Assembly (NCBI GenBank): GCA_037043015.1
Contig: CM073324.1
Coordinates: 13,413,013 to 13,477,012 of the forward strand
Reading direction: 5' to 3'
Length of the DNA: 64,000 nucleotides
From: Bryum argenteum
Taxonomy: Eukaryota; Streptophyta; Bryopsida; Bryales; Bryaceae
The translations under genes and the position numbers were made by a program. This document shows positions 1,521-54,300 of the stretch, piece after piece. The notes beneath the pieces are model-generated. The model saw nothing but the letters and a program-made list of their open reading frames with translations, was not told where the DNA came from and ran no database searches. Position 1 is the stretch's first letter, and every line of letters begins with the position of its first letter.

Positions 1521-4500
1521 CTACTGGTTCACAGTGCTTCTTCCGAGAAGTTCAAGCACTTGGGGTCGCTTGTAGCGTTTGAGCCACAGGGAGGAGCACA
1601 CCACGGACACGGAGGAGGCAGCCATGGCAGCACCAGCTAGCCAGGGGGGCAAGCGGAAGCCGGTGCTCGGGAAGAAGACGCCAGCAGCGATGGGAATGCC
1701 CAGCACGTTGAAGCCCAGCGCCCACACGTAATTCAAACGGATCCTCCAGAACGTCTTCCGTGACAAGTCGATGCCCGTCACCACGTCCTCCAAGTTGCTC
1801 TTCATCAGCACTATGTCCGCTGCTTCGATGGCGATGTCCGTCCCTGCCCCGATCGCCATGCCCACGTCCGCTGCCACCAACGCCGGCGAGTCGTTGATCC
1901 CATCCCCCACCATCGCCACCGATCTCCCTGCCGCCTGCCACACCAGAACCCATATCAAGCATAGAAATACCACTTAAGAATCTTCGAAGTGTACACATCG
2001 TTGCATTTGTGGATATTTTATCATCGACGGAAGAAATGAGATTAGGCATAGTGCAAAGTATTGATTTCCAGAGATTTTCAGGGGCAAGAAAAGGTGCTGT
2101 CAAGAACAACTTGCATCGCATTTTAGCATCAACACCTTCTCCTGGTGAAAGTGGAAGTTCCACGAATTTCACCAGGAGAAATTGTACACGACACACTGAC
2201 ATTGTCATTAGCTCCAGATTACCGTGGAAATTGCACATTTCCTCTCGGTTTATGGTTTACTGCACGGACCTGGATTTCTTTCACGATGAGGGCCTTGTCT
2301 TCTGGCAAGGACTCGGCGTACACGTAGGGGCGTTCGATGCCAAGCTCGCGAGCAATGGCCATGGCGGTACCCCAGTTGTCTCCAGTGACCATCATGCTGT
2401 GCACGCCCATGCTGTTAAGAATACCGATCACCTTGGCTGCTTCGGGTTTCACTGGGTCCGCAATGGACACCACTCCCACGAGCTCGTTGTCGATGGCCAC
2501 CAGCACCCCCGTTCTAGCCAGCGTCTCCATCTCCTGAAGGTGCTGCTGAGCCTCGTCAGAAATAAGCACTTTCGACTCCATGAGCCTCATGTTTCCTACC
2601 AGCGTTACCTTGCCGTCCACCAGCGCTCGCACCCCTTGTCCTGGAATCGCATCAAAGTTAAGAACCTCTAGTTGCGAGGGGGTGTTCTCTCCATTGATTT
2701 TCCTCGAGTACTCCACCACCGCTTTTGCTAGTGGGTGCTCACTGTTTACCTTCACACCGAAACAACCGTATCATCAGCATCGAACGAGGTACCACGAACC
2801 AACTCCACGAATCTTGTGAAAATAGAAGAGAGATTACTTCAGCTGCTGCAATGGTGTCATAGAAGACATGAAGACGAAGACTCGTGAAAAGCTTGGTGCC
2901 AACTACGATAGGCTTGCCGATAGTCAACGTCCCTGTTTTATCGAAAATCACCGTCTTCACCTACAAAGCAACAAACAAGTTCAAAGACCTCCAAATCAGC
3001 AATTTCTCAACATGTATGGTCTCGAAAATCTGTTAAGAATTCAAGCTTGAGGAATTGCGAGGTGCCATCCTTTTCAGTGCATCCAGACAAACCTTGTGAG
3101 CGGCTTCAAGTGCTTGACCTCCTTTGATGAGGATACCCTGAGTGGCACCTTTCCCTGTGGCCACCATGATGGCAGTGGGTGTGGCAAGGCCAAGTGCACA
3201 AGGACAGGCAATGACAAGTACTGAAATGCCGAATTGAAGAGCAAGCTCAAACTCATCCATCGAAGAAGGAATCCATGATTTTGGATACGAGTGTAGCTTG
3301 GCCCCGAGGTACCAAGCGAGCCATGTGACCAGCGATGCAATCACCACCTGCAAATTACAAAAGAGACGATTTCATTCATGAAAGTAATCTTGGTTACCTC
3401 AACGCTAATCTTGCAGGAGCTCTTGGATGATTGATTACCGTTGGCACAAAGTAAGTCGAGATGCGATCAGCGTATTTTTGAACTGGAGCTTTGCCCATTT
3501 GAGCAGCTTCGACCAGGCGCACAATCTGTGCTAACGCCGTCTCCGCCCCCACATGCGTAGCTTGGATGTGAAGCACACCGTGGTTATTCATGGTGCCACC
3601 GATCACTTTGTCTCCGAGTATTTTCGACACGGGCCGAGCCTCCCCGGTTATCATGCTCTCGTTTACAAATGATTGTCCCCAAACTACCAGACCATCGGTG
3701 GGTATTTTGGAACCTGGCACCACCTGCTCAAATCCCGGCATTAAATCTGCACAATACTGAACAGGAATGCTGTGAAAATGAACAATGCTTAGTGACAGCA
3801 TGCAAGACTGACCTTGATGATGTCGCGTCGTTGAATGAGCTCAGAGGCAATTTCGCGCTCGTTGATCACATATCCATGCTCGTCGAGGGTGAGGAGGATG
3901 GCGGTATCCGGAGCAAGATTCATGAGCTTGACTATAGCTTCCGAGGTTTTCCCTTTGGCTAAAACTTCCAAGTACTTCCCAAGTATGATGAAGGAGATGA
4001 GCATGGCGCTGGTTTCGAAGAAGTCTGTTCCGTGGAATGCAGGAGAGGTAGCTGCTCGCAGAACGGTGTACACAGAGTAGAAGTAAGCTGCATTAGTTCC
4101 CAAAGTAACCAACACGTCCATGTTGGCTGAACCGCGACGAAGAGCTTTGTAGGCTCCAACGTAGAATCGTCGCCCGATCACAAACTGCACTGGAGTAGCC
4201 AGAATCCAACGCAAAACAGCCCCAGTCGACAAGCTGTTGATAAAGCCCGCCTCCAGATTCTCCTTAACGCCCGGAATGTACATCAGCACCATGGAGAGCA
4301 GGAATACAGGCACTGTGAACACCAAGCTCCACAGAAAGCTCTTCCTCAGGTGCTGAATCTCCAAGCTCCTGTCGTGACTTCCTTGACCCGGAGGTTTGTC
4401 CAACTTCGCAATGAAAGCTCCTGTGTGTTCTATGGTTTCAATGAAGGCTCGGGGTCCTGCTTTGTCTGGGTCGTACGAGATCGTCGCCATGGCAACTTGG

Positions 4501-6007
4501 AGATCGAACCCCACGGATGCCACTCCATCAAGAGCCAACAGCATCTCTTTCACGAGCTGGAAGTCATCGGGAGTGACGACGTTCTCAAGCTGCAGACGAA
4601 CTCTGTTGATCTCCTCGCCTGCGCTCAGCAGCTCGGATTCGTAACCGAGGTCGTCGATTATGGCTGCTAGTTGGGCATAAGAAATCACGGCTGGGTCATG
4701 TCGCACCTCGCATTCTTCCGTGGCAAGGGCGACCACCGCCTTTTGCACTCCTTGAGCTTTGTTCAGTGCAGCTTCTATTGAGCTCGAGCACGAGGTGCAC
4801 GTCATGCCTTTGATTCGGAAGCGGCTTTTAGTCATACTTGCTTGACTCGCATCGTCTGTAATCACTTCTGCCCCGAAGCCTGCATCCTCTATTGCCTCTT
4901 GAATCCCTGCTTCCTGCATTCGACATTCTATCAAAAACTCGATCCACTTCAGTGTGTTTTGACAATTTTCATCATGATTTTGAGTGACGTGAGAGGTAGA
5001 TTGCAACGAACACAGCCTAATGTCCTTACAGGACAAATACTTCTATTCGTCAACAAATTATCTTATGAAAACAGCTTGTGACACATGTGATGAGGAAAAC
5101 TTTTGAAGGAAAAGATTGAACAAATTGGAAATGTTTCTCACTTTCTTGTGACCAATTTAATTGCTCCTTTCAACCGTCACGTGTCTCTTTGTCTTCACGT
5201 AGAATTTGGATTTATGAACTTTGAATCCTTTATCCGTTACACGAGGGAATTTGAGCAGCACTACTATCATACTAGTAACTTAACAAATTGTTCTACAATC
5301 TGTACAATACAGTTTGCATGAATTCCTTAGACTAAGATACGAATTGATGCATTGAAGTGTGGAAGGAGTGTAGAAAGACGGACCTGGACAAAAGCAGGTC
5401 GAAACACGACTTGCGCTCTGTTCTGCAGCACGGAAATTGTGGCTTCCTCAATCCCAGGCAATCGTTTGACAGCTTTTTCAATCGAGCCTGCACATGCTGC
5501 GCATTCCATCCCTGTGACCTGCACTTTCCACGAACCCACTGTGTGTCAATCACCAAGTAAGCACTTGCTACACACAGCTTCTTCATGTGCAGTGAAGTGG
5601 ATTCGACGAATTGGGTATATACGACTAGCATAACTTGTCGTTGAATCTGGCTGGACAATCGCAGGTAGTCTCCTGTAAGCTTCGAGACTTCGGGAATATT
5701 CAACAAAAAAATTCATGACCGCAATTCATGGAACAACGTAAGCAAGTCGCTCTCAATTTACAGTCAATCGAAGTGGAGGATTGTTCTTGCACGATGTAGA
5801 AGGACTCTCAGATTGTGAGCAGGCAACCTTGAAACTGGCTTTCCGAATTTCGGAGACGTCGATCTCGGAGTGCGACGGCGAGGGTGGGTAGCGCGGCATC
5901 GACGGGTACCGCGACGAAGATGACAAGTTGTGCTCCAAAACATTCTTCGTCGTCGTCTTGAATCCTGGTTTCTTCGGCTGAATCACTACTTTCAGTAATG
6001 ACTTCAT
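1521..6007 (-). CDS. HMA5: HMA5-like copper-transporting P1B-type ATPase
   Basis: Pumps Cu(I) across a membrane using ATP; plant HMA5 proteins export copper from the cytosol. Exons (minus strand): 6007-5828, 5518-5384, 4913-3813, 3723-3439, 3347-3093, 2960-2838, 2749-2270, 1934-1521. All are phase 0 and give 990 aa, against about 995 for Arabidopsis HMA5. The N-terminus shares RYPSMPR with rice HMA5. There are two metal-binding domains with GMxCxxC (Cys 66/69 and 144/147). Other motifs are TGE at 498-500, CPC at 615-617 in the ion-path helix, DKTGT with the phosphorylated Asp 659, SEHP at 696-699, TGDN at 815-818 and GDGIND at 863-868. The last helices keep MAASS (957-961), but the YN motif reads FN (928-929). 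Start chosen because it is the first ATG in the frame that keeps the conserved N-terminal motif. Exon 1/2 was the hardest junction; the choice made joins SFK to VTGMEC. Confidence 0.93.
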
Positions 6008-22697: not shown

Positions 22698-22853
22698 GCT
22701 TGTAACACAGTATTGAGGAAAACCGCTCATAGCCTTTGAAAACCGCACTTGCTCCCTCCCTCATGACTTTAGGTGATTTAGAGATCCCAAAAAACAAATT
22801 GGAAAAAATTGCACATTTTACCAATGCAACCCGAAATAAATGTCAAAATTCCA
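22698..22853. repeat. Direct repeat, left block of a composite element (copy 1)
   Basis: About 155 bp closely matching 49606-49761, including AAAACCGCTCA, a GCACATTTTACCAATGCAACCC block and TGTCAAAATTCC at the right edge. In the 49.6 kb copy this block is joined directly to sequence that here lies 4.25 kb away (from about 27110). A weaker tandem copy of its left part lies just before it (from about 22650). Confidence 0.85.
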
Positions 22854-23282
22854 AAACACAGAATTAGGAATTTTTGCACTTGGGGGTAGAATCATGCACT
22901 TGCAAATGGATGGTTCAAAAAATCGCATTTAAAGAAATTAGGTGGACCATTTCATCCTTGAATGTGGTATCCTATTTTAATATCAAAATTCTAAAAAAAT
23001 ATTCTTCTTGGTAATGAATGAATCTCATAATTGGATGCAATATATCTTGGCAAGTTTTGTGTGTACCATTCATTTCCCAAATTTTAGACTCCTTCAAGTG
23101 GTATAAATGGCCGAGATATCAAAAACTTTATTGCACTTTTGTAACAAAAAAAACATGCAATGTAAAAGAAATTTAATACTTTTAAGAACTCCTCTAGTTA
23201 GCAACATGATTACTACTAATATAAACTTACACTGCTAAAAGTACACCTTCTTTTCCCTAAATATTTATTTCTACCTAATCTC
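22854..23282. other. AT-rich spacer inside composite element copy 1
   Basis: No gene or clear repeat seen. It belongs to the stretch of about 4.25 kb that is absent from the copy at 49.6-50.8 kb. Confidence 0.35.
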
Positions 23283-23760
23283 TATACTAACAATGGTCTA
23301 TATAATTTTGAAGGCGTTCGTTATGTATATATTCAAATTGCATTGCAATGTATTCTAGAAAGTGTGGTTTTGCAAAAATTGGAATTTTGATGTTTCGCTC
23401 CGTTGAAACACCATGTATTGGGATACAAAGTTGTTGCGGTTTTTTGGTTCTTGTATGTTGTGTTTCATCCACCCATGAATAAATTGATCCTTCCTTCTCC
23501 ACCCATCCATGTCTTTCACTTGATGGCTCCCACTTTGACTCCATGCAATTCGAATACCGTTGTTTAACAAGAACCGATGATGTTTCTCGCGATCCGCACC
23601 ATTGCGGCCAATACCGCACTACTTTCATTTTTGTTGCCCACCTTCCATTACCAAATTCCGGAACTTTTCCAATATAAAACGGTACACCTGCTTGAACCTC
23701 CGTGAGATCGATGGTTAGCACTATGAAGTGTTGTACCTTCACATCATCAAAAATGAGTAA
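23283..23760 (-). pseudogene. Diverged C-terminal domain of a DUF7869-type transposon protein
   Basis: The 151-codon frame (23742-23287) reads VQHF, then PFYIGKV, MKVVRYWP, RYSNC and KWEPS in order. The same order of anchors (VGHFF, PFFLGQV, MKVMWYRP, FEKCLKQ, RWIPS) is seen in the C-terminal piece at 27480-27780 and 50451-50740. I infer a second, older lineage of the same protein family. It has no catalytic core next to it, so it is a fragment. The domain may be of BAH or chromo type, but this is a guess from its shape. Confidence 0.55.
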
Positions 23761-24523
23761 ACGGAGCTTTCCGTACTATGGTGTAATTGGTACATGCGAC
23801 TCTAGTATTGTCTAAGATCTTTGATTCTAAGCATATATTATTATTGGTAAAAATATGTGCATACCCCTTATACCTCAAACCTTGTAATCATGTATGGAGA
23901 TTTATGAACAACACTACTAGAAATATTGGCAATATTTTCAATTTCAAATATTTGAAATTGTAATCATCAACTCTAGCAATGTATTTTAAATATTTGAAAT
24001 TGTAAACAATGTTTCCCATCAATACAATAACTTTACTTGTTTTTGTAAGAACATTAGTACTAAAGCAAGACCTAGGACATTTCTTTACTTGCATGGCGTT
24101 AGACAAAAAAACGTTGGGAATTTCCTTATAATATTTAGTAATTTAAAAATGTGTATTTTGGTGTGATAATACAAATGAGAGTAGATTATAATATGAGATT
24201 GTCCCCATGATTTTTATTCACTAAAAAATTTCATATTTTATGGAAATCCTATTTTATTTCTAAATAAAATTGTCAAGGGTGCTATTAATATTGTGCCAAC
24301 AACGCTCCCAAAAAATTTCAAGTTAATATTATCAAATTTGAGTAAGTTAGAGTCATACAGACTTGGGAATCTCACAACACATGAGTAAACTAAAACCTGA
24401 AATAAGCGGTCGCTTTGAGTATTTTAAAAATACTACATGCATGTTATTTATCCTTATTATATTACATGAAGATACAACTTCCTAACTCAAAGATTAGAGC
24501 AATCCATAAAAAGTAAAAGAAAA

Positions 24524-24530
24524 CTGAAAA

Positions 24531-24562
<32 letters not shown>

Positions 24563-24565
24563 AAA
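24524..24565. repeat. Poly-A low-complexity tract
   Basis: A run of A interrupted by two G. It reads as poly-T on the minus strand. It could be the tail of an old retroposon, but no body was identified. Confidence 0.8.
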
Positions 24566-24714
24566 CGAACAAAAGGAAGGAAACAAGATCGAGTACTAAA
24601 CAAAAATGAAAAAACTTCCAAAAAGTAATAAGCAATAAAAGTTTCAAATAAATTCTTAAAAGTTTTGTTAGTTTAAGATTTGAAAAAATAATAAATAATA
24701 TAAAAATAAAATAC

Positions 24715-24862
24715 AAGAATAAAAATAATAAAAATAAAATATAAGAATTAAAATAATAAAAATAAAATATAAGAATTAAAATAATAAAAATAAAATATAA
24801 GAATTAAAATAATAAAAATAAAATATAAGAATTAAAATAATAAAAATAAAATATAAGAATAA
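24715..24862. repeat. 28-bp AT-only tandem array
   Basis: About five near-perfect copies of a 28-bp unit built on ATAAGAATTAAAATAATA, with unit starts at 24741, 24769, 24797, 24825 and 24853. The array then decays into A-rich sequence up to 24910. Confidence 0.9.
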
Positions 24863-24910
24863 AAAAAATTAAAAAAATAAAAAATAAAAATAAAAAAATA
24901 AAAAAATAAA

Positions 24911-25165
24911 ACTCCCATGCCACCGAACAGCTCCCTTGGCCTTGGCGGCAAGGGCGCTGACTCTGACCTCTGCAGCGCGGGGGGGCGGCGGTTAGCGGCA
25001 ATGGCCGCCGCTTGGCCTCGGGCGGGCCCGCCTCTTTCTTTCTTCTTGCTGGGCGGTTGATATCCTTCGCAGGGTGGGGTCGCCGCTCGCCTCTCCACAA
25101 TCACCAGCCTCGCCGCAACGGCCATACGACATATGGAGAGTGTATAAGTACCCCTCCCCACATTT
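24911..25165. other. GC-rich block inside AT-rich repeats
   Basis: About 250 bp of very GC-rich sequence (for example GCGGGGGGGCGGCGG) sharply bounded by AT-only DNA on the left. The minus-strand frames are Pro/Arg/Ala rich and show no known domain. It looks like an inserted or captured fragment rather than local sequence drift. Confidence 0.6.
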
Positions 25166-25334
25166 CATTTTGATTCGTTGCAAGTTAATACTTACCTTGA
25201 AGCTGGGTATTTTTTGGAATAACAAGAAATGATGACCTTTTCAACCTTTTATAATAAATAAAATGGAGTTTCATCCATAAGAATCTCAATTTTACATGAT
25301 TTTAAGAGTTCTTGTAAACTTTCTTTTGCAATAC

Positions 25335-26040
25335 TAGGGTTTCATTGCAAATTAATGTTTTTGTAGTTTTAAGGTTTTGTATACTTAATTATTTTTTTGT
25401 TGTTTCATGGTTTTTTGTGTTTATATAGATTTTCATGGCATACTAGGGTTTCATTGCAAATTAATGTTTTTGTAGCTTTAGGTTTTTGTATACTTAATTA
25501 TTTTTTTGTTGTTTCATGGTTTTTTGTGTTTATATAGATTTTCGTGGCAAATTAGGGTTTCATTGCAAATTTTATTTTGTAGCTTTAGGGTTTTGTATAC
25601 CTAATTTTTTTTTTTGTTGTTTCATGGTTTTTTGTGTTTATATAGATTTTCATGGCATATTAGGGTTTCATTGCAAGTTTACGTTGTAGTTTTAAGGATT
25701 TCTATGGTTTGAAATATTTTGTTGTTTCATACTTTCATGTAGTTTTACAGGTTTAGTAGTTTGTTTTGGGGATTTAGGATTTCATTGCAATCCTTTTATG
25801 TTGTTATAGGATTTTGTGTCGTATGAAGTTTGTGGACCTTTTACAATTTTTATAGTTTTCTTTATTAACGAGTTTAGAATTCATTGCAGTAACATTTTCA
25901 AGTTGTGGGTTTTTAGTTTGTTTGAGGAATTTTGTCGTTATAGTATTAACTGTTGTATTTTGAGCTTTAAATTTTGTTTCAAATTTTAATTTTTATTCAA
26001 TTGAAGCGTTATATAACCCATGAGTTTCATTGCAAAACCA
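25335..26040. repeat. 109-bp tandem repeat, decaying rightwards
   Basis: Unit starts with TAGGGTTTCATTGCAA and occurs at 25335, 25444, 25553 and 25661 (periods 109, 109, 108). The first two are nearly identical and the fourth is diverged. Further degenerate starts (ATTTCATTGCAA, AATTCATTGCAG, GTTTCATTGCAA) follow at about 25778, 25872 and 26021, so the array probably once ran on to about 26.04 kb. Confidence 0.85.
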
Positions 26041-27109
26041 TTTTTTGAATTTATTTATGATGGTTTGTACCCATAAGATTATTAATAATTTGTGATTTTT
26101 TGTGGGTGTAGATTTTTCTTGGGTTTTTGTATGTTTGATATTTCATCTCTCAAAAACTACTCATTCTTCTTTTGGTCAACTCCAAAGTCATATGTGTTTG
26201 TAAAATTATCATTTATTATAATATTGTTGAATTCTTCCTTACAAAAATTTATTCTTCGAGTAAGTAAGTTACTAAAGTAAAGTACTAAAGTAAAAATACA
26301 AAATTTTATTTTTTCATTATATTTGGTTTTTAAATGATAAATATTTACAAATATATCACATTGATTAATATAAAATTATCACCTGATAACTTATTACTTG
26401 AGAACCTCAGTTTTTATACCTAAATTAATTATTGTTTGTTTGTTGGATATACATGCCGCGTAGGTGAAGAGGGCAACTATATATTTGTGGAGCCATCGTC
26501 TGTTTTGAACAAAAATCCAGGGTTGGACCAAGTGCCATCTAGAGTGATAGATGCTATGTTGGCCAAAGCGACAATGGATTATGCGGGCTTTTTGATTGCA
26601 TGGGAGATGCGGCCTCGCGAGGGGTGAGGAGCAACCGCAATTGGAAAGTGTCGAGTTAATAGCAGATAGTCCTCCTAAGTTGCAATGATGGATTTTTATA
26701 CAATACGTATTCTAAAGGGTGCAATGTATGTTCAGACGGTGTCAGATGTTTATTTATTTTCCGACAAGAAAATATGTAATGTTTTATGTGGAGTAAAGTA
26801 AACAGAGCTATCTTTCATCATAAATGTATTTGAGTTTTAAGTTGCAATAAATGCATGTTTTCAAATAGACTATTCATTACCAAAATGTTGATAAAGTATT
26901 ATGAGAAATTTAATAATTCTTCTATGGAAGTTTTGCATGTTGCAATGACTTTCATTAAGTGTCCATTGTCATAAAGAAAATAGGGTATCCACATTGATAG
27001 TGATGTGGTATACCAATTTGAAAAAATTAGAGATTTTGGTCGAAACGGATTGCAAATGTACATTGCACTTCTTGGGTGCAAAATTAACGAATTTGGTGTT
27101 CTAACATTT
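26041..27109. other. AT-rich stretch with one odd higher-GC segment
   Basis: Bases about 26450-26640 (+) give a short frame (GEEGNYIFVEPSSV and on) with a composition more like coding DNA than its surroundings. The family is not recognised. Otherwise nothing seen. Confidence 0.3.
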
Positions 27110-27835
27110 GGTACATCTCATGGTTTCATACGTGTTTAGATTAAGAAGATAGGATAAAAATTATGCATTATACATTATATATATATATATACACAATGAA
27201 ATTTCAATATCTAATAAGACTAAGGAAAAAATCAACCAATATATATGCTATATATATTCTTATGCTAAAACTTCTATACTAATTTGCAACTACTCGAAGT
27301 CATTTTCTTTTGTTGCATCTGTTTTGTTCTCCACTTGCTCATTGTTAGTTGTATGAGATTGATTTGCCATGTGCTCCAAGAGATGAAAGTCATTGCTTTT
27401 GGAATAGATATCTCTTTCTCCGCAATAGTTTTTTTAACCATACAAGTCTCAAATTTTGAAGATGGTGCCTATGAGGTAATTGTTGTATCTAAGTCCATCC
27501 AATTCGACGGCTCATAAGAAGGAATCCATCTTTGTTTTAGGCATTTTTCATGTGTGTAGGTCCACATGTCTGGGTCATCTCGCAAAATTGTTGGTTTCGG
27601 CCAATACCACATTACCTTCATGCTTCCCGATTTTGTGGAAACATTTCTCTTGTCCTAAAAAAAAAGGTTTGTCCAACCTCATATCATCAATGCTGCTATT
27701 CATAGCAAAAAAATGTCCAACTTTAACATCGTTAAATAGATCAAATTCTCGATAAGGCTCCGATGTGGATTCCTCCAAAGATGTAACATGTGTTGTATAA
27801 ACAGGTCCTTGCTTCCTTGTAGGTTTTTAGCTTTC
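27110..27835 (-). repeat. Direct repeat, right block of the composite element (copy 1)
   Basis: Matches 49764-50833 in the same orientation at roughly 90% or more by eye, including the AT microsatellite near 27175 and the transposase C-terminal coding part. Copy 2 differs by a 259-bp element inserted at a TTAA, a short duplication of the GTTTGTCCAACCTCATATC segment near 50105, and a small insertion near 50635. Confidence 0.85.
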
Positions 27836-30800
27836 TCATTTGAGGTTTGTGACGTCTCGGCCCAAAATATCCCCTCTTGTACCACTCGAAGATGATTCAA
27901 GATTGTTGATGCATCTAGAGTGTCTTTGTCTGCCTGAAGTCCTTCCAATCCATCCATATTCCCATCCCACTCAACATGGTTTTGCGACTCTATACTTTTG
28001 GGCCAAAAGTTTGATTGTTCTTACACTTCTGAGTTGCTCTTCTTAGGAAATTCGCCGAGATATTGTAACGACTACTTTCAATTGTTAATGGCTTGTAGAT
28101 TACGCTCAACCTGCATAAACTTCAAGACGCATCGTTATTTTCATTTGATAAATTCCTCCAAAGCTCTCATCTCTTGTTTAGTTGCCTCTTCCACTTCGGC
28201 AAACTCTAGTTTTGAACCTTCTTCCGACACTTCATTTAGGCATTGATAGCTGTTTGCAGGCTCCCAAGATGAATCTCGAGCATAGTCTTTGGTCGGAACA
28301 AATGGTTTATTGTTGTTCAAATAAAATCTAAAGCGATGGGATTCTAAAAATCCCCGTAAATGCGTCTGGACCTGTAAACATGTATGGAATGATGAATTTC
28401 TTCGAATCCGAGATGTACTCTAAATGACGAGAAGTTCTAAATGATTTTGTAAGAGATGTGCCTCCCTCGACCAAGACTAACAGTTGTTGCATTGAATCGA
28501 TGTCTTAGGACTTAAGTACTTCGGATATAAAAGTGAATATTTGATCTATATCCTCATGTGTGTGCCTAACAAGAAGAAAAGCTAAATGTATCTCTGCAAA
28601 ATAGTCTAAACCCACAAGTGCGCTACACATACCAAACATGTATTTGTTCTTGTTTTCTTTGTCACAACTGTCCGCTCGGATGCGTTGGAAGAAGAATGCC
28701 ACTACGTCGAGCTTTCACATCCGCAATAGCATACATTATGGATGTAATCATCTGATTGCTATCATGGTTATGATGGGAGTCAATGGAAAGAACGGAATAC
28801 AACCCTTCTTCGTGTACGAGTATTCCACACAAATAAGTCTTCACATACCATCCTTCCATTCCCTTCACTGATTGCTGTAACTTTGGTACGATTGTAGTCT
28901 TTTGGTCCATCTCATCATTGATGAAACAAAGAGATTGGTTTGAAAACAATTTCGCATTATCTTTAGCCTCTCAGTAATCTTTTTTCTCTTCAATCTGTAA
29001 TGCCTGATGTAGTAACAAATTTTCCTCAATCAAACACTTTTGTGTTGGATTTGTGGTACTTGAGTCCAAGCACGTTCGATATTTCCAATAAATCTGACAT
29101 TTAGAAAATCTAGAGTTTGGTGGTATCCGTACGTAAGTATACTCTTTGCGCCACATATGATAAAATGAACAAACCCCAAGTAAATTTTCAAGTGTCGATT
29201 TCTCCACGTTTGTTGACACTGCTTGAAAAACATCATTTCGTGTAGTATTTACGAGCAGTAGCACCAGTGGCACCATTTCATTATGACTCCTTCTCTGACA
29301 TTGTCTATGAGGTTGAGTGCATCATGCTTCTTTTAAATCTTTCAAACATTGTCTTCATTGATTGTATCCCTGATCATGTACGCGATACATTGACAGTATT
29401 TCCGTGAACTGCCGATATTCTGCCATTGCATTGCATATCATGTACTTTTGAAGCAATCCTTCTACTTCTGATGTCCGATTTCAATTCTCAATCCGCCTTC
29501 TTGGATATTCAAGGGTGATTGCATAACAACCATTGCATATGTCTTGCCCACAAAGTTTAGTCTCAAACTTATTTGTTTCAGCGTTGTAAACATTTGTAAA
29601 ACTCTCGAGAATTCAAGATGCCCTCTGTAGTACGCATATTTTTGGACTTTGAGCATGTTTTTGACTTTTCTTGTGATAAAAACTTGTTTTACCATTCATT
29701 TTCCTTTCTAAGTGTTAGTTGGAGTTGAAATGAGATAAGAAGGGAAAGTAAGTGAAAAGATAGACTATCTCTGTGTCCGTATGCGCTTCATGGCCTTCTC
29801 TTGGTGTCATATCACTTTTTGATTCATTGCCAGCAACTTCTCCTGATCCAAAATTAAGTACAACCCCATCATATTGTCGAACCCACTCGCAGAGCCTCAA
29901 TTCTTCTCACTATGTTAAAACTCTCATTGTTAAAATTTGAGTTTCTTTGAAACCATCCTCAACTATTGTTGGGATATTTGAAGAGGGTCCCACTAACGCT
30001 AGTGTCTAATCATTGAGCAAATAACAATTGATCAACCTTGTTAATTTCTCCGGTGTTCTTCTCTCTTAAATGGTGCAAACTTTGACTCACAATCATAAAA
30101 ATCTCGGTTTAGAGGCATTTTCGTCCGACATATATTGTCGATGGAGTTGGAATCTTTAGCACATACCATGACAATAATCACATCTCCTACCACCTCGATA
30201 GATACAACTTCTTGCCCACCAAATCATAAGTTGTTCCTCCTTGTAGTTGTCTCCGGTGTAAATACCCATGTCACATAACGAGTGATTCGATGAGATTCTT
30301 GCAAATCATCCATCAGAAATTGCATGTTTACACTCTCAGAACAAAGAAACACCACATTCCATTGGGGACAACGACTCATGATCCACTTTTCTAGTAATTG
30401 AATTGCTTCTTTATCATCTTTTTCAATCCATGGTTTGTCCTCTCGTGCTGTACTTCCCCATCGACAGTCCACCACTTATAATGTTGGTTCTACAAGCTAA
30501 CCAAATCCACTTGTAAATAGACCACCTCGATGCATAATATGGATCTCAGATTGTTCCTCTGATCCTTGAATCTACTTCTTCACCTTTGTCTCTCACAACG
30601 ACCCCTTCAAACTGTACGTGTCATTCCCGATAAATTTAACCTTTCCCACAAAACCCTTATCGCCATTAACAATATCGCGATGATGAACTCTTATGGCTCT
30701 TGATATCTCTTCGGCGTACTTCTTCAGTGCAGAAACAAAAACGCATAGTGACGAAGCCCAATGGTTAATAAAACTTCTGATGTCCAAGTGCAACTAAAGT
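27110..30800 (-). mobile_element. Broken DUF7869-type DNA transposon (putative transposase remnants)
   Basis: Minus-strand frames give the parts of one protein in order. From 30.8 to 30.2 kb there are unrecognised N-terminal pieces. Near 29.5 kb is a segment that translates, after a frame change, like 48109-48417. At 29276-28971 comes a piece with SRFSKCQIY, and at 28949-28662 one with DEMDQKTTIVPK, GILVHEEG, SIDSHHNHDSN and QMITSIMY. At 28702-28505 are RADSCDKENKNKYMFG and FLLVRHTHEDIDQIF. At 27957-27480 is the C-terminal domain. The HTHEDID and D.....NKN.Y motifs are typical of the family annotated as DUF7869, common in mosses and many animals and thought to be transposon-derived. Several stops and frame changes interrupt it. 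Ends and target-site repeats were not found. Confidence 0.6.
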
Positions 30801-45011: not shown

Positions 45012-46191
45012 TTAACCCCTAAAATTCCTTGTGTTTTTGGGAGCTAGAAATCTCAAAACTGCGATTTTCTACCTCTATGCACTCCCGAGAGTATGTGCCA
45101 ATTTATTTTACTATTTTTAGACTTCCAACCGTAGGATCTTGTACCTAAGTCTATTTATAGGCACTGATCCAAAAATTGACCGTTGGATGTTTTTCATTTG
45201 CGAGATCATAATGTTCAAAGTTAGTGCAAAAGTTTTTTTCGGCCTTGCCCGAGATGCATTGTCTCCATGGTGCCTAGGAGGACTTGATGATTGTTACTCC
45301 AAACATTTTGGTCATATTTTTTTCCATGTAGATAGGTAGGTTGGTTATGCTCATGCAAAAAATTGGACCCTCATTCGGCTCTATGAACCTTCATGCACAA
45401 TTTTTTCTACACATTGGTGTGAATTCCATGCAAAATGTCAAAGTTAGAGGAAACTATACATAGCAACAAACTAAAATGGATTCAAAGGAAAGCGAACGGT
45501 GAGAATGTGTCTCCCTATATTTTTGAATTTTAGGAGAAAAAAAAAAATGAAATTTAGTATCATCTCAAATTGTGAGAATTTTCACAAGTGCGAATAAGTA
45601 AAATTCGATCAAAAACCCAAGGGGCAGTCCTTAGATGTTGGGGGTGTTTCTTGGAGTAAGGGGCCCAACATGCAATTAGTGACCCTGCAATTAGCCCTTA
45701 CAAGAAGTAATAACGATTGGCCATAAATATGGCTAAAAAAAACTCTTTTTTGGATCAATGTCAGAGGGGGGTGCTACTGCAATTAGAAGCAACGGAATAA
45801 AGGTTTAATGATGATGGCGAGTGGTGCGGAGGTGGCATTCCAAGCATTCCAAGCCCCATTATTGTAATCTAGGGTTATGCAAAAACCCATCCCAAAGGAC
45901 CTGCCCTTTGCCAATCCTTTCCCCTGACCCTCATGGCCGCCCGTTGTACGACCTCACTCCTCATTGGTGCAGAAGGCAGCCCGATCTGCCCCAGTTGGGG
46001 TCCAAAACTAGAACATGCTCTCAAAAATTCTAGAATTGAAATCTAGCTTCAAATTTTTTACCACACAAACTATGTAGTATAGAGAACCTTCTGTGAAAAT
46101 TGTGGCCTCAAATAATAATTTTAAGTCACTCAACGAAAGTGCCCAAAACAGCAAAAAGCCATTTCAGCTTTCTTGGGTCTTTAGGGGTTAA
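45012..46191. mobile_element. Non-autonomous TTAA/CCCC element, full-length (1172 bp)
   Basis: Starts TTAA-CCCCTAAAATTCC at 45012 and ends TTTAGGGG-TTAA at 46191. The ends are inverted (CCCCTAAA/TTTAGGGG) and flanked by TTAA on both sides. It has no transposase frame. Inner parts (CCAACCGTAGGATCTTGTACC, GATGATTGTTACTCCAAACA) recur in the copy at 59.8-60.8 kb. TTAA duplication plus CCC termini is the piggyBac pattern; no other plant superfamily I know uses exactly TTAA with such ends. Confidence 0.65.
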
Positions 46192-49605: not shown

Positions 49606-50833
49606 TTATTGTACACAATATTGAAGAAAACCGCTCACGGCCTTTGAAAACCGCATTTGCTCCTACCCTCATGAGTTTAGGTGATTTAGAGATCCCAAGA
49701 AACAAATTGACAAAAATTGCACATTTTACCAATGCAACCCAAAATAAATGTCAAAATTCCAACCTTTTGGTACATCTCATAGTTTCATACATGTTTTGAT
49801 TAACCCCTAACTCTCCTTGTTGCAAAATGGTCTGAGTCACAAAATTTGACCTTCCTTTGGATTAAGCTCAAAAAATCTCAATCTAAGCATTATTTAAAAT
49901 ATTCAACCGTAAGATCTCGAAGTTCACTTGACATTCTTCTCACATACCAAATTTGAACCGTTCATTCTTCCTCATTTGTGAGATTATAATGGTCAAAGTT
50001 GGCTGAGTTTTTCTCCTGCGGGAACCTCCTAACCCGTTTCGGGTTTTAAGGAGAGTTAAGGGTTAAGAAGATAGGATAAAATATTATGCATTATATATAA
50101 AAAAAAGGTTTGTCCAACCTCATATCGTCAATGCTGTATTCCATTATGCATTATATATATATATACGCTTGGAATACACAATGGAATTTCAATATCTAAT
50201 AAAACTAAGGAAAAAATCAACCAGTATATATGCTATATTCTTATGCTAAAACTTCTATACTAATTTGCAACTACTCTAAGTCATTTTCTTTTGTTGCATC
50301 TGCACTGTTCTCCACTTGCTCGTCGTTAGTTGTATGAGATTGATTTGCCATGTGCTCCAAGAGATGAAAATTCATTGCTTTTGGAATAGATATCTCTTTC
50401 TCCGCAATAGTTTTTTCAACCATACAAGTCTCGAATTTTGAAGATGGTGCCTATGAGGTAATTGTTGTATCTAAGTCTACCCAATTCGACAACTCATAAG
50501 AAGGAATCCATCTTTGTTTTAGGCATTTTTCAAATCTGTGAGTCCACATGCTTGGGTCATCTCGCAGAATTGTTGGTTTCGGCCTATACCACATTACCTT
50601 CATGCTTCCCGATTTTGTGGAAACATTTCTTATAGCCTTCACTTGTCCTAAAAAAAAAGGTTTGTCCAACCTCATATCGTCAATGCTGCTATTCATAGCA
50701 AAAAAATGTCCAACTTTAACATCGTTAAATGGATCAAATTCTCAATAAGGCTCCGATGTGGATTCCTCCAAAGATGTAACATGTGTTGTATAAACATGTC
50801 CTTGCTTCCTTGTGGGTTTTTAGCTTCTCAAAA
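49606..50833 (-). mobile_element. Composite element copy 2 (internally shorter form)
   Basis: The left block (49606-49761) matches 22698-22853; the rest (49764-50833, minus the inserted element) matches 27110-27835. The intervening 4.25 kb of copy 1 is absent. The right part encodes the C-terminal domain of the DUF7869-type protein on the minus strand (50696-50451: MRLDKPFFLGQVKAIRN, MKVMWYRPKP, RWIPSYELSNWVDLD). Similarity ends abruptly at about 50833. Confidence 0.75.
49800..50066. mobile_element. 259-bp TTAA/CCC MITE inside composite element copy 2
   Basis: Element 49804-50062, TTAA at both sides. Ends CCCCTAACTCTCCTT and AAGGAGAGTTAAGGG are inverted with one mismatch over 15 bp. The related sequence near 27136 reads GATTAAGAAG, the exact empty site with one TTAA. 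Inner motif CAACCGTAAGATCT links it to the larger element at 45 kb. No coding capacity. Confidence 0.85.
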
Positions 50834-51367
50834 GGGATCTTATAGAAGTCATGGCTCTTCGAAATTTCTGCCTTTCACCCAAATAGGCAACTTTCAAACA
50901 CAAAGTCATATTGGGGCTTGTAAAGATTTATGCCAAGGTTAACATTTATAGAGGGTGGACCGTAGTGAACAGTTCGGATGGCGTTCTATTTAAATATCTC
51001 TGAATAGTAATTTCCCGTTCCAACTGTAATGGACTGTAAGTAGGTCCTGACCACGTCACCTTTCATTCCCGCCAAACGGCACCAATGGCCCAGTGGTCCG
51101 TTCCCCGCGGTCTAGTCTCCCGCCATTTCTGAATTCAAGCTTGCTCCGTTGGGACCCTGAATGCAAGCGGGACTCTCGGCACTAGGTGTTGATCGAGTAC
51201 ACCTGGTACGACGCCATCCAGCGAACGATCATGAGATTTTGTACGAGATCGAGATTGTACTCGCTCGCAGCTTAGAATTCGCTTTCCCTCATCCGGATTT
51301 TGTTGTTTGCCGAATCGCTATTGACTGGGAATGCTCTCGATAGGGCTGCAATAATCTACAGGTGGCC
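50834..51367 (+). promoter_or_regulatory. RECQL5 promoter with two E2F-like sites
   Basis: TTCCCGCCAAA at 51066-51076 is a full match to the plant E2F consensus. A second core, TCTCCCGCCATTT, lies at about 51116-51128. Both are within 310 bp of the ATG, with a GC-rich stretch (CCCCGCGG) between. E2F sites are typical of S-phase replication and repair genes, which fits a RecQ helicase. The left border is the end of composite element copy 2. Confidence 0.6.
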
Positions 51368-54300
51368 ATGGAAGTACAGGTCTGTGGAAAATTGAGCGCC
51401 GAGAAGGAGAATTCGAAGACGCAGCTGCAGTCCTCGGGGAAGCGGGTACTCGACGACCCTCGTCAGCAAGAATGCAAGAAGGTCAGAGTAACGCAGGGGG
51501 ACGCCGCTACCTTGCGACGCGTCAGTGGTGCGAGAAATCTTATTCCTAGGTCGTGGAGTGAGTGTAATCTCGGTCCAGGGCAAGTGTTTGGCGGATTGAG
51601 GGACGAAGTCCGACCAGCGCCGAAGATCGTCCGGGAGAGTGGGAGCCAAGCGATCCAAGCGCCGCGAGCTGAAATTAGCGGGAAAGTGGGGAATCACAAG
51701 CTGCCAGAGCTTCTATCGCCTCTGACTCCTCTAGGGTTCACAATTAAAGTGCAACGACATGGTCGATCTAGCGACGGGGTTCCAAAGGACGATGGGAGTT
51801 TTTCAAATGCAGGTTCTTTCTCCGGTGGCGCCGGGCGATTTAGTTTATTGGGGAAGCGCAACAGAGTAGAATCGCCCCTCAAATCTCCTCACGTAGTCGA
51901 CGAGGTACACTGCCCCAGTAGCCCTCCGGCTCCTATACAGAAGGCAATCGCTGCCGAGAGGACAATATCTGTAGAGGAGAGGGCGCAAGCTCGCGACGTA
52001 CCTGAAGATAGACCTCGCAGAGCCACTCCATCAGCCGCGGAAGAGGCGAACGAAGCTGCACCCGCGCGACGGTCTTCGAGAAACAAGCCAGCAATTAGTA
52101 GTCAATCTCCTACCCACGCGCTGCATGACGTCGAGCCAAAGATTAAGAGACCCGCGCGAGCCAAAGCTACTCGCAAATCCATTCCAGCTTGCGACGATGC
52201 AGAAGAGACTTCGGACTTTCCACACAAAGAAGATGCACCGGACGTCGAAGTCCCAGAGCCTAGGAAGAAGCGAATTACGGGATCGAAGGCCCCTCTCAAA
52301 TCCACACTATCTTGCGACGATGCAGAGGATGCTCCCCAGCAAGCAGAGTTACCATCTAAAGGCGAAGGGGAGAATCCTCAGCCGCGGAAACGAGCAAAGG
52401 CGTCGACAGTGGAAGAGAGCTCATGGTCACACCCCAAGGCGCTGCAGAAGAAGAAGAGAGCGCCAGTAGGTACCGCAGCGGGCAGTTCAAGGAGACCAAC
52501 GCAGCAGCTCAAAGCCGGCGAGCGGGACAACTTCGTGAGATTGAACATTAACGGCAAAGGCGGGCGTCGCAAGTTCATCAACGGGTCCCGAACAAAGCGA
52601 CCGGGTGCGTATGGGCGTCGCAAGTCCTTCAGAAAAGCACACAAGCAGGAGGATGGCGAGAATTGTAAGGACATGGCGGAAGGTGACACCAATGTGGACA
52701 CCCTCGTTGGGCCCAGCAGCAAGCGCAAATCGGCGAAGCGCAACTTGGATGCTGATGCAGCTCCCTCCGGGCGGTCGCTGTGGGTTGATGAAGGTTGGTA
52801 TGATAAGAGCGTTCTCGCATCTCCCGTGGCTCCTTGCCCTGTCGAGAAAACGGCGGAGGAGCTTGCGAGCTTGAAGGAGGCTGTCGCCACTGCTCTTGAC
52901 GACCCTTGTGAAGCAAATTTGTTAACAATCCTTGAGCCTGTTTTTGGATACAAGGCGTTCCGGGCTGGACAATTGGCTGCTGTCCAGCGTGTGCTGGCGA
53001 TGGAGTCCACTCTGCTTGTGCTTCCCACTGGCGCTGGGAAGTCTCTCACTTATCAGGTTCGTGCTCTCCATCTCCTGTTCAAGCTTCAGGCAACACATTG
53101 AGTATAGCTCCTCGTATGCAACTACACATGTTTCTAAGTCGGTGCTGCATAATCAACATACATTTGTCATAAATCTAACTCTGATATGTATTGATTGTGC
53201 TGCCCTTTGATGCCATGTTTTGAAATGCAGCTCCCCGCGTATATTCTTCCCGGACTCACGTTGGTGATCAGTCCTTTGGTAGCGTTGATGGCAGACCAGC
53301 TGCAGCACCTTCCTCCATTGCTTCCTGGAGGTCTCATCAATAGCTCTCAGGTTTGGAACTTGTCATTGTATGAGGATTTCCTGCTCTTGCTTGATGCTGA
53401 ATTGCATTACAATCTTGCTGGGGACACCAACGGGATGTTCATCTGTGTGCAGACAACTGCTGAGAGCACTGAAGTAATGAGTCGACTTCTTTCTGGTCAA
53501 ATTAAGGTTTGTTCCAGGGCTCTTGTTTCAAGTTTGTAATATCACTTAGTATATTTGTATATCTGATGCTGACAAGAAGCTCGTGGGATGGATGAAGTCC
53601 ATTACAAGCACTGAAGCTTTGAATTAACGATATTGCTGTGAAGGTGCTGTTTATATCACCGGAGCGTTTGTTCAGTGAGAGTTTTCTGACGGCTCTGGAC
53701 GCCCTCCCCGAAATTTCGTTGGCAGTGGTGGATGAGGCTCACTGCCTTTCAGAATGGTAAAAGCTTGCATTCATTTCACAAGTTATCCTGCAGTATTTCT
53801 TACTCTTGCAAAACTGACTGGGCTTCTGTTCATCAGGTCACACAACTTCCGGCCCTCGTATTACAGGCTTGGCAGCATATTGAAGCAACGTTTGCGCGTC
53901 CCGTGCGTCCTAGCGTTAACTGCAACTGCAACCAAAGAGACCGAGTGTTCCATCACTAAAGCCCTCTCTATCCCTTCATCTGGAATCATACAAGCATCTC
54001 ATGTTCGCCAAAATCTTCATCTATCTGTATCACGGCCTTCACACAGGCAAGTCAAGCACCAGCATTTTCGGAAGTATCTCGTGTCTTGTATAAGTGCGCA
54101 TTGATGAGATGATCTGTTCCTCTTCACAGGCGGAAGGATCTACTCGCTCTACTTCAGTCTAGCCCATTTTCAGAGGTCAAAAGCATCATCATCTACTGTA
54201 CATACCAGGTAATAAGAGCATTCTCGATGTGCGAGTTGAATGTCTTGTATGTTCCGTGCTCTGGCCGTCCTCTTGATGATTTCTCTGTTAGTGCAGGCTG

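Follow-up and report, generated by a model that had tools for sequence, protein, structure and literature searches.

A TTAA-duplicating piggyBac-superfamily MITE in Bryum argenteum and its transposase-bearing relatives

We analysed a 64,000-nucleotide stretch of the Bryum argenteum genome (C4:13413013-13477012; hereafter 'the window') against the genome as a whole (258.8 Mb, 25 contigs). At 49804-50062 the window carries a 259-bp insert, tentatively placed on the minus strand because its left part is homologous to transposase-bearing elements at their 3' ends. The insert lies between a TTAA at 49800-49803 and a second TTAA at 50063-50066, and it is bounded by 15-bp terminal inverted repeats (TIRs): CCCCTAACTCTCCTT at 49804-49818 on the plus strand and CCCTTAACTCTCCTT at 50048-50062 on the minus strand, which agree at 14 of 15 positions. 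The initial annotation had described just such an insert, with inverted ends starting in CCC and TTAA on both sides, and its coordinates and ends are confirmed. Matches to TTAACCCYTAACTCTCCTT with up to 3 mismatches occur at three places in the window, as compared to a mean of 0.01 in 100 shuffles; two of these are the ends of the insert, and the third, a match with 3 mismatches, is at the left end of a 1,172-bp element considered below. Folding of the insert as single-stranded DNA gave a z of -1.49, and, because 14 of 200 shuffles folded equally well, we conclude that it has no strong hairpin apart from its TIRs. An Rfam scan of the window returned 0 matches. Elsewhere in the window are a 417-aa open frame at 3789-5042 (minus strand), two stretches of which match the heavy-metal-associated (HMA) domain, and a 585-aa open frame at 51344-53101 (plus strand), which matches no Pfam family at E 0.001 and has a weak, sub-cut-off match to DEAD helicases. 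Outside the window, contig C12 (114.6 kb) carries an intact rbcL followed by a frame, recognised by eye, that we take to be accD, a gene order that points to a land plant. The rbcL looks bryophyte-like, and the genome seems to comprise about eleven large contigs. An oomycete source, considered in view of the long open frames of the transposases, was set aside on account of these genes.

The window also contains an unoccupied version of the insertion site. When the insert and one TTAA are removed before alignment, the flanking sequence, 49766-49803 plus 50067 onwards, aligns to a paralogous repeat at 27107-27838 (plus strand) that has a single TTAA, at 27141-27144, where the insert sits between two. 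The alignment spans the junction (94% over 67 bp at 27107-27172) and extends through the right flank (91.8% over 694 bp at 27166-27838), and the upstream flank continues at 22700-22854 (plus strand; 91.6% over 155 bp). The pre-insertion copy proposed in the initial annotation is therefore present as a single-TTAA paralog that aligns across the junction, but its position requires correction: GATTAAGAAG is at 27139-27148, not at 27136. The paralog is split by a 4,252-bp stretch (22855-27106) that ends 34 bases to the left of its TTAA; with its two pieces lying 4,252 bp apart, the empty copy is no allele but a paralogous repeat that has diverged. It represents the unoccupied state, which is compatible with a site that never received an insertion and with one that was cleanly excised. 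The splitting stretch has a GC content of 0.28 at 24-26 kb, and a Pfam search with a 96-aa frame of the host repeat returned 0 families.

The results of genome-wide counts define the length of the duplication. The exact end CCCYTAACTCTCCTT occurs at 977 places (489 + 488), as compared to 0 + 2 for a reversed control; it is preceded by TAA at 895 of these places (444 + 451) and by TTAA at 876 (436 + 440), with a reversed-control count of 0 in both cases. Because the fourth base is T in 876 of the 895 TAA-preceded ends (97.9%), we conclude that the target duplication is four bases, TTAA. The remaining 101 exact ends lack TTAA, with 82 lacking even TAA, and we take them, on the strength of the fetched loci, to be decayed or truncated copies. 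Analysis of 21 distinct full-length copies, a non-random set drawn from 38 loci (the 8 best MITE matches, which include the window's own copy, and the first 30 listed ends, on C1 and C2) after removal of 5 partial BLAST rows, gives the same picture: TTAA is present on both sides in 19 and changed on one side in 2, and the four positions outside the TTAA on each side have mixed bases. Genome copies are thus mostly flanked by TTAA, rather than by TTA or TAA alone, in agreement with the initial annotation. The 21 copies have a mean pairwise divergence of 6.1% (range 0.4-11.5%). Length is uniform: among the 100 listed ends, 25 of 29 pairings span 259-261 bp, and a 3,306-bp pairing was rejected as an artefact of the simple pairing rule, which had passed over one inner plus end that pairs with this same minus end. 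A search of the genome with the MITE itself reported 41 places, with the best 40 of 1,970 first-look candidates scored. The family is short, non-coding, high in copy number and uniform in length and carries the ends of an autonomous family, which are the features of a MITE.

The ends of the insert led to a transposase-bearing partner. A 7,450-bp element at C3:18244405-18251854 has CCCCTAACTCTCCTT, the left TIR of the insert, exactly at both ends, with TTAA outside each, and contains a 718-aa frame that matches PF13843 (DDE_Tnp_1_7, the piggyBac transposase family) with E 3.8e-73; the relative with a DDE_Tnp_1_7 transposase that the initial annotation envisaged thus exists. The only solved structures that match the 718-aa frame at E <= 0.01 are 6x67 (1.8e-29), which we take to be the T. 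ni piggyBac transposase, and piggyBat 9c0f (4e-29). The catalytic aspartates of the transposase align with the three of 6x67, whose catalytic roles we assume. The C3 copy may be inactive as it stands, because its transposase lies in two overlapping frames, an N-terminal 230-aa frame overlapping the 718-aa frame in another phase. Better copies of the 7,450-bp type were reached by searching with the 5' region of an end at C1:4543575, which has a decayed clade B transposase behind it ('clade B' being our own label for one transposase clade) and no partner end with fewer than 4 mismatches within 1.5 kb; the 3' end of this C1 copy was not found in the stretch fetched. A third copy of this type, L059 on C4, has the same 5' end and contains, beyond the transposase, a 105-bp unit repeated about 12 times with 94% matches (L059:6675-7923). 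Similarity between the insert and the 7,450-bp element itself is confined to 15-17 nt at one end and 32 nt at the other. The terminal 32 nt of the insert (50031-50062, minus strand) are 90.6% identical to the 5' end of the 7,450-bp element and 84-91% identical to 5' ends across its family, and they include, just inside the TIR, a short CCCGA/CGGG inverted repeat. The TIRs of the insert also bound an 884-bp foldback on C2 (L041:1501-2384; C2:1440390-1441273) that has 325-bp arms 97.5% alike and is about 90% alike to a 579-bp element on C1 (L025).

Among transposase-bearing elements, the longest internal match of the insert is to a 5.7-kb family, a sister family within clade B. Positions 95-198 of the insert (49898-50001, minus strand) match the 3' subterminal region of this family at 74.5% over 106 columns (E 5e-13) in BLASTN comparisons with L056 and L054, and when seven 3' ends are aligned, almost all of them retain the block CAACCGTA..GATCT..ACCRTT..CATT.G.GAGAT. 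The 5.7-kb family has other TIRs, CCCCTAAAGRCCCA, than the insert. The insert accordingly keeps clade B-type TIRs together with part of a 3' subterminal region and a short stretch of 5' end, and on these alignments it is a patchwork of two families' ends and not a clean deletion of one known element; its true parent was not found, the longer match being to the sister family at 74.5%. The 1,172-bp element of the window (45016-46187, minus strand, with TTAA at 45012-45015 and 46188-46191) had been treated in the initial annotation as a copy of the 259-bp element, which does not hold, since it is a relative with different ends. Its left 391 nt are 71% identical to the 3' end of L056 and its right 59 nt 83% identical to the 5' end of L056, and its left 318 nt are 80% identical, over 320 columns, to the 3' end of the 7,450-bp element. 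Such end-only similarity is what internal deletion with retention of both ends should produce, and the 1,172-bp relative has the look of a clade B piggyBac that lost its interior in this way.

According to established piggyBac biology, a clade B transposase would bind the ends of the insert (TIR plus subterminal DNA), would excise it precisely, leaving no trace, and would join it to another TTAA. The two lines of sequence similarity point to different sources of this enzyme: the identical TIRs suggest the 7,450-bp family, and the internal match suggests the 5.7-kb family. We infer that the likeliest supplier is the 7,450-bp family, the family with identical TIRs. That some other clade B family, and not the 7,450-bp one, was mainly responsible for mobilising the insert, whether by cross-mobilisation or by a parent since lost or unsampled, is a possibility that we take seriously without favouring it: the longest internal match is to the 5.7-kb family, this family has recent full-length copies, and identity between the insert and its 7,450-bp partner is low outside the TIRs, but the 5.7-kb TIRs are unlike those of the insert, whereas the TIRs of the 7,450-bp copy are identical.

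Under either source of enzyme, the insert is almost certainly a MITE of the piggyBac superfamily that resembles both ends of a clade B element with the coding middle missing. The initial annotation had assigned it to piggyBac on the combination of TTAA and CCC; the class is supported, but TTAA alone is insufficient, since Kolobok elements also duplicate TTAA (PMC9587614, in the accessible part of its text). The assignment follows from the end sequence, the partner element and the shared internal sequence. The piggyBac superfamily is described, in excerpts of PMC2872659, as having 12-19 bp TIRs with a CC[C/T]T terminal motif; the right end of the insert, CCCT, agrees with CC[C/T]T, and the left end, CCCC, is one letter off. 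Clade B transposase-bearing elements share CCCCT ends, which is also the commonest end of the MITE family and is one letter off CC[C/T]T, and clade A ends are CCCTT. A Kolobok-type element is exceedingly improbable and was rejected: the TTAA duplication fits, but Kolobok termini are 5'-RR and YY-3' (the same excerpt of PMC9587614) as compared to CCC...GGG here, and the partner whose TIRs are identical carries a PF13843 frame, the only solved-structure relatives of which (E <= 0.01) are 6x67 and piggyBat. A PIF/Harbinger (Tourist, TTA/TAA) or Tc1/mariner (Stowaway, TA) MITE sitting in TTAA by chance is scarcely credible, even though both kinds are named among angiosperm MITEs (PMC10004981, in part) and a single locus cannot tell TA, TAA and TTAA apart, because the genome-wide count contradicts such duplications, with T at the fourth position in 876 of 895 cases where base composition leads us to expect roughly a third if the base were free; in addition, the bases outside TTAA are mixed and the partner encodes PF13843.

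The partner transposase belongs to a diverse population. A PF13843 profile search yielded 116 scored matches, the best 116 of 775 first-look candidates, all above the curated cut-off, with 93 of the 116 having no stop within the matched stretch; PF13843 was found in none of 14 control genomes, a result that is little informative, as the controls in companion searches were prokaryotic. Comparison of the longest frames of eleven distinct PF13843 loci indicates at least five lineages: lineage A (L009, L010, L013 and L018), lineage B (L012, L014 and L054), and also L011, L016 and L017. Transposase identity is 90-98% within lineage A and 68-74% within lineage B, and between lineages it is about 31-42% in most pairs and 28-29% for L015, the longest frame of which matched L017 only. 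No match to the MITE TIR with fewer than 3 mismatches lies beside the first ten PF13843 loci. Two of these loci, L009 and L010, when fetched wider as L051 and L052, proved to be complete clade A elements, a different family, of 4.94 and 5.19 kb with TTAA-CCCTTAAACGCCC ends. The PF13843 match begins far into the protein, at residue 311 of 809 in L014 and residue 389 of 824 in L056. L014 has a Cys-rich C-terminal segment, in frame, that is found also in L054 and L056-L059 and partly in L055; used as a query, this segment gave no match in L051 and L052, both of clade A.

Comparison of two 5.7-kb clade B elements points to recent movement. L056 (C4; 5,693 bp) and L057 (C9; 5,697 bp) have different flanks and TTAA on each side, and over 5.7 kb a single substitution and 8 gap bases separate them. 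Because elements on different contigs differ so little, we conclude that piggyBac has moved recently in the Bryum argenteum genome. The longest frame in both is 831 aa between stops, and, because the Cys-rich end sits in the adjacent frame, L056 and L057 may need splicing or the help of other copies. The end TTAACCCCTAAAGRCCCA occurs at 557 places genome-wide, and 100 listed places form 38 pairs, 25 of 260-265 bp, which constitute a second MITE, and 13 of 5,692-5,708 bp. The clade A end TTAACCCTTAAACGCCC occurs at 3,298 places, such that the three TTAA-plus-end patterns together (876 + 557 + 3,298) account for 4,731 sites.

Some copies are immediate neighbours. Two full-length elements on C2 (region C2:1907221-1918618) are adjacent with one TTAA in common (1912919-1912922), and elements at C7:11991839-11992086 and 11992083-11992349 overlap by exactly 4 bases, apparently one common TTAA. 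These arrangements may reflect insertion beside an existing copy or formation in tandem. The distribution among contigs is uneven. Contig C1, at 44.09 Mb the longest met, is strongly depleted of piggyBac sequence, with end counts, read from ordered listings, of 17 of the 977 exact MITE ends (166 expected if even) and 60 of the 3,298 clade A ends (562 expected), and with 5 of the best-scored 116 PF13843 matches (binomial P 3e-5). C1 also has only 5 of the 150 WD40 matches scored, all of them in one place, and so may be gene-poor; that it is a sex or heterochromatic chromosome is a guess.

The piggyBac superfamily is best known from animals. The Bryum elements resemble its characterised members (6x67 and piggyBat 9c0f) in having a PF13843 transposase with aligned catalytic aspartates, a C-terminal Cys-rich segment (in clade B proteins), TTAA duplication and short TIRs that start with CCC. 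They differ in their land-plant host, in the size of the complete elements measured here (4.9-7.45 kb), in their long N-terminal extensions and in having CCCCT rather than CC[C/T]T as the commonest end of the MITE family. The closest published analogue that we found is the CMITEs of the coral Acropora, as portrayed in excerpts of PMC2872659: these are TTAA-duplicating MITEs that have piggyBac ends, occur in tandem arrays and have a partner, AmiPB1, whose TIRs are identical and which is weakly similar next to the TIRs, and they include an allele pair with and without the element, which is matched here by a paralogous empty site. The coral host is an animal, and the Bryum system differs further in that about 100 nt of the MITE, and 391 nt of the 1,172-bp relative, resemble transposase-bearing elements.

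The claim in the initial annotation that piggyBac is poorly documented in land plants fits the open-access literature but needs qualification, inasmuch as reviews and tables, in the portions accessible to us, already list piggyBac for plants. Thus, piggyBac is named among plant superfamilies in a review (PMC10794571, in part) and among angiosperm MITE superfamilies (PMC10004981, in part), is entered in a table of superfamilies present in all groups studied (PMC4438587, in part), has 1,230 copies and 122,417 bp in the C-fern repeat table (PMC6890710, in part) and is represented by one copy of 75 bp in feather grass (PMC8319324, in part). The repeats so labelled in PMC6890710, PMC10004981 and PMC8319324 share the piggyBac name and a land-plant host with the elements described here; unlike the latter, they appear in the excerpted text as labels or counts only, with no full element, partner or empty site. 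Among the papers listed in searches of the open-access literature, a body from which subscription papers are mostly absent, no title or opening of an abstract describes an endogenous moss or liverwort piggyBac, and we do not claim its absence from print; in the accessible part of one moss genome paper (PMC10619864) only 'expression piggybacking' is mentioned. We conclude that piggyBac is not new to plants as such, and that the unusual feature is that a land plant harbours a piggyBac population of several lineages with recent activity.

Taken together, divergent lineages, spreading 5.7-kb elements, MITEs riding on them and thousands of ends incline us, by a modest preference, to regard Bryum argenteum as a land plant in which endogenous piggyBac has very recently been transposing and which could hold a usable native plant piggyBac. 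As a laboratory tool, piggyBac is valued for its scarless removal. The animal-derived system has been used in rice and, as of 2017, was yet untested in the moss Physcomitrella (PMC5505980, in the part of the text available). For annotation, the findings mean that bryophyte MITEs should not be assigned to Tourist or Stowaway by angiosperm habit. For the biology of the superfamily, a native, recently active plant lineage would allow the behaviour, silencing and inheritance of piggyBac in a plant to be asked about, as well as the entry of plant piggyBac by horizontal transfer, and these questions are directly testable in Bryum argenteum, where almost identical copies occur together with miniature elements that match them and with an empty site.
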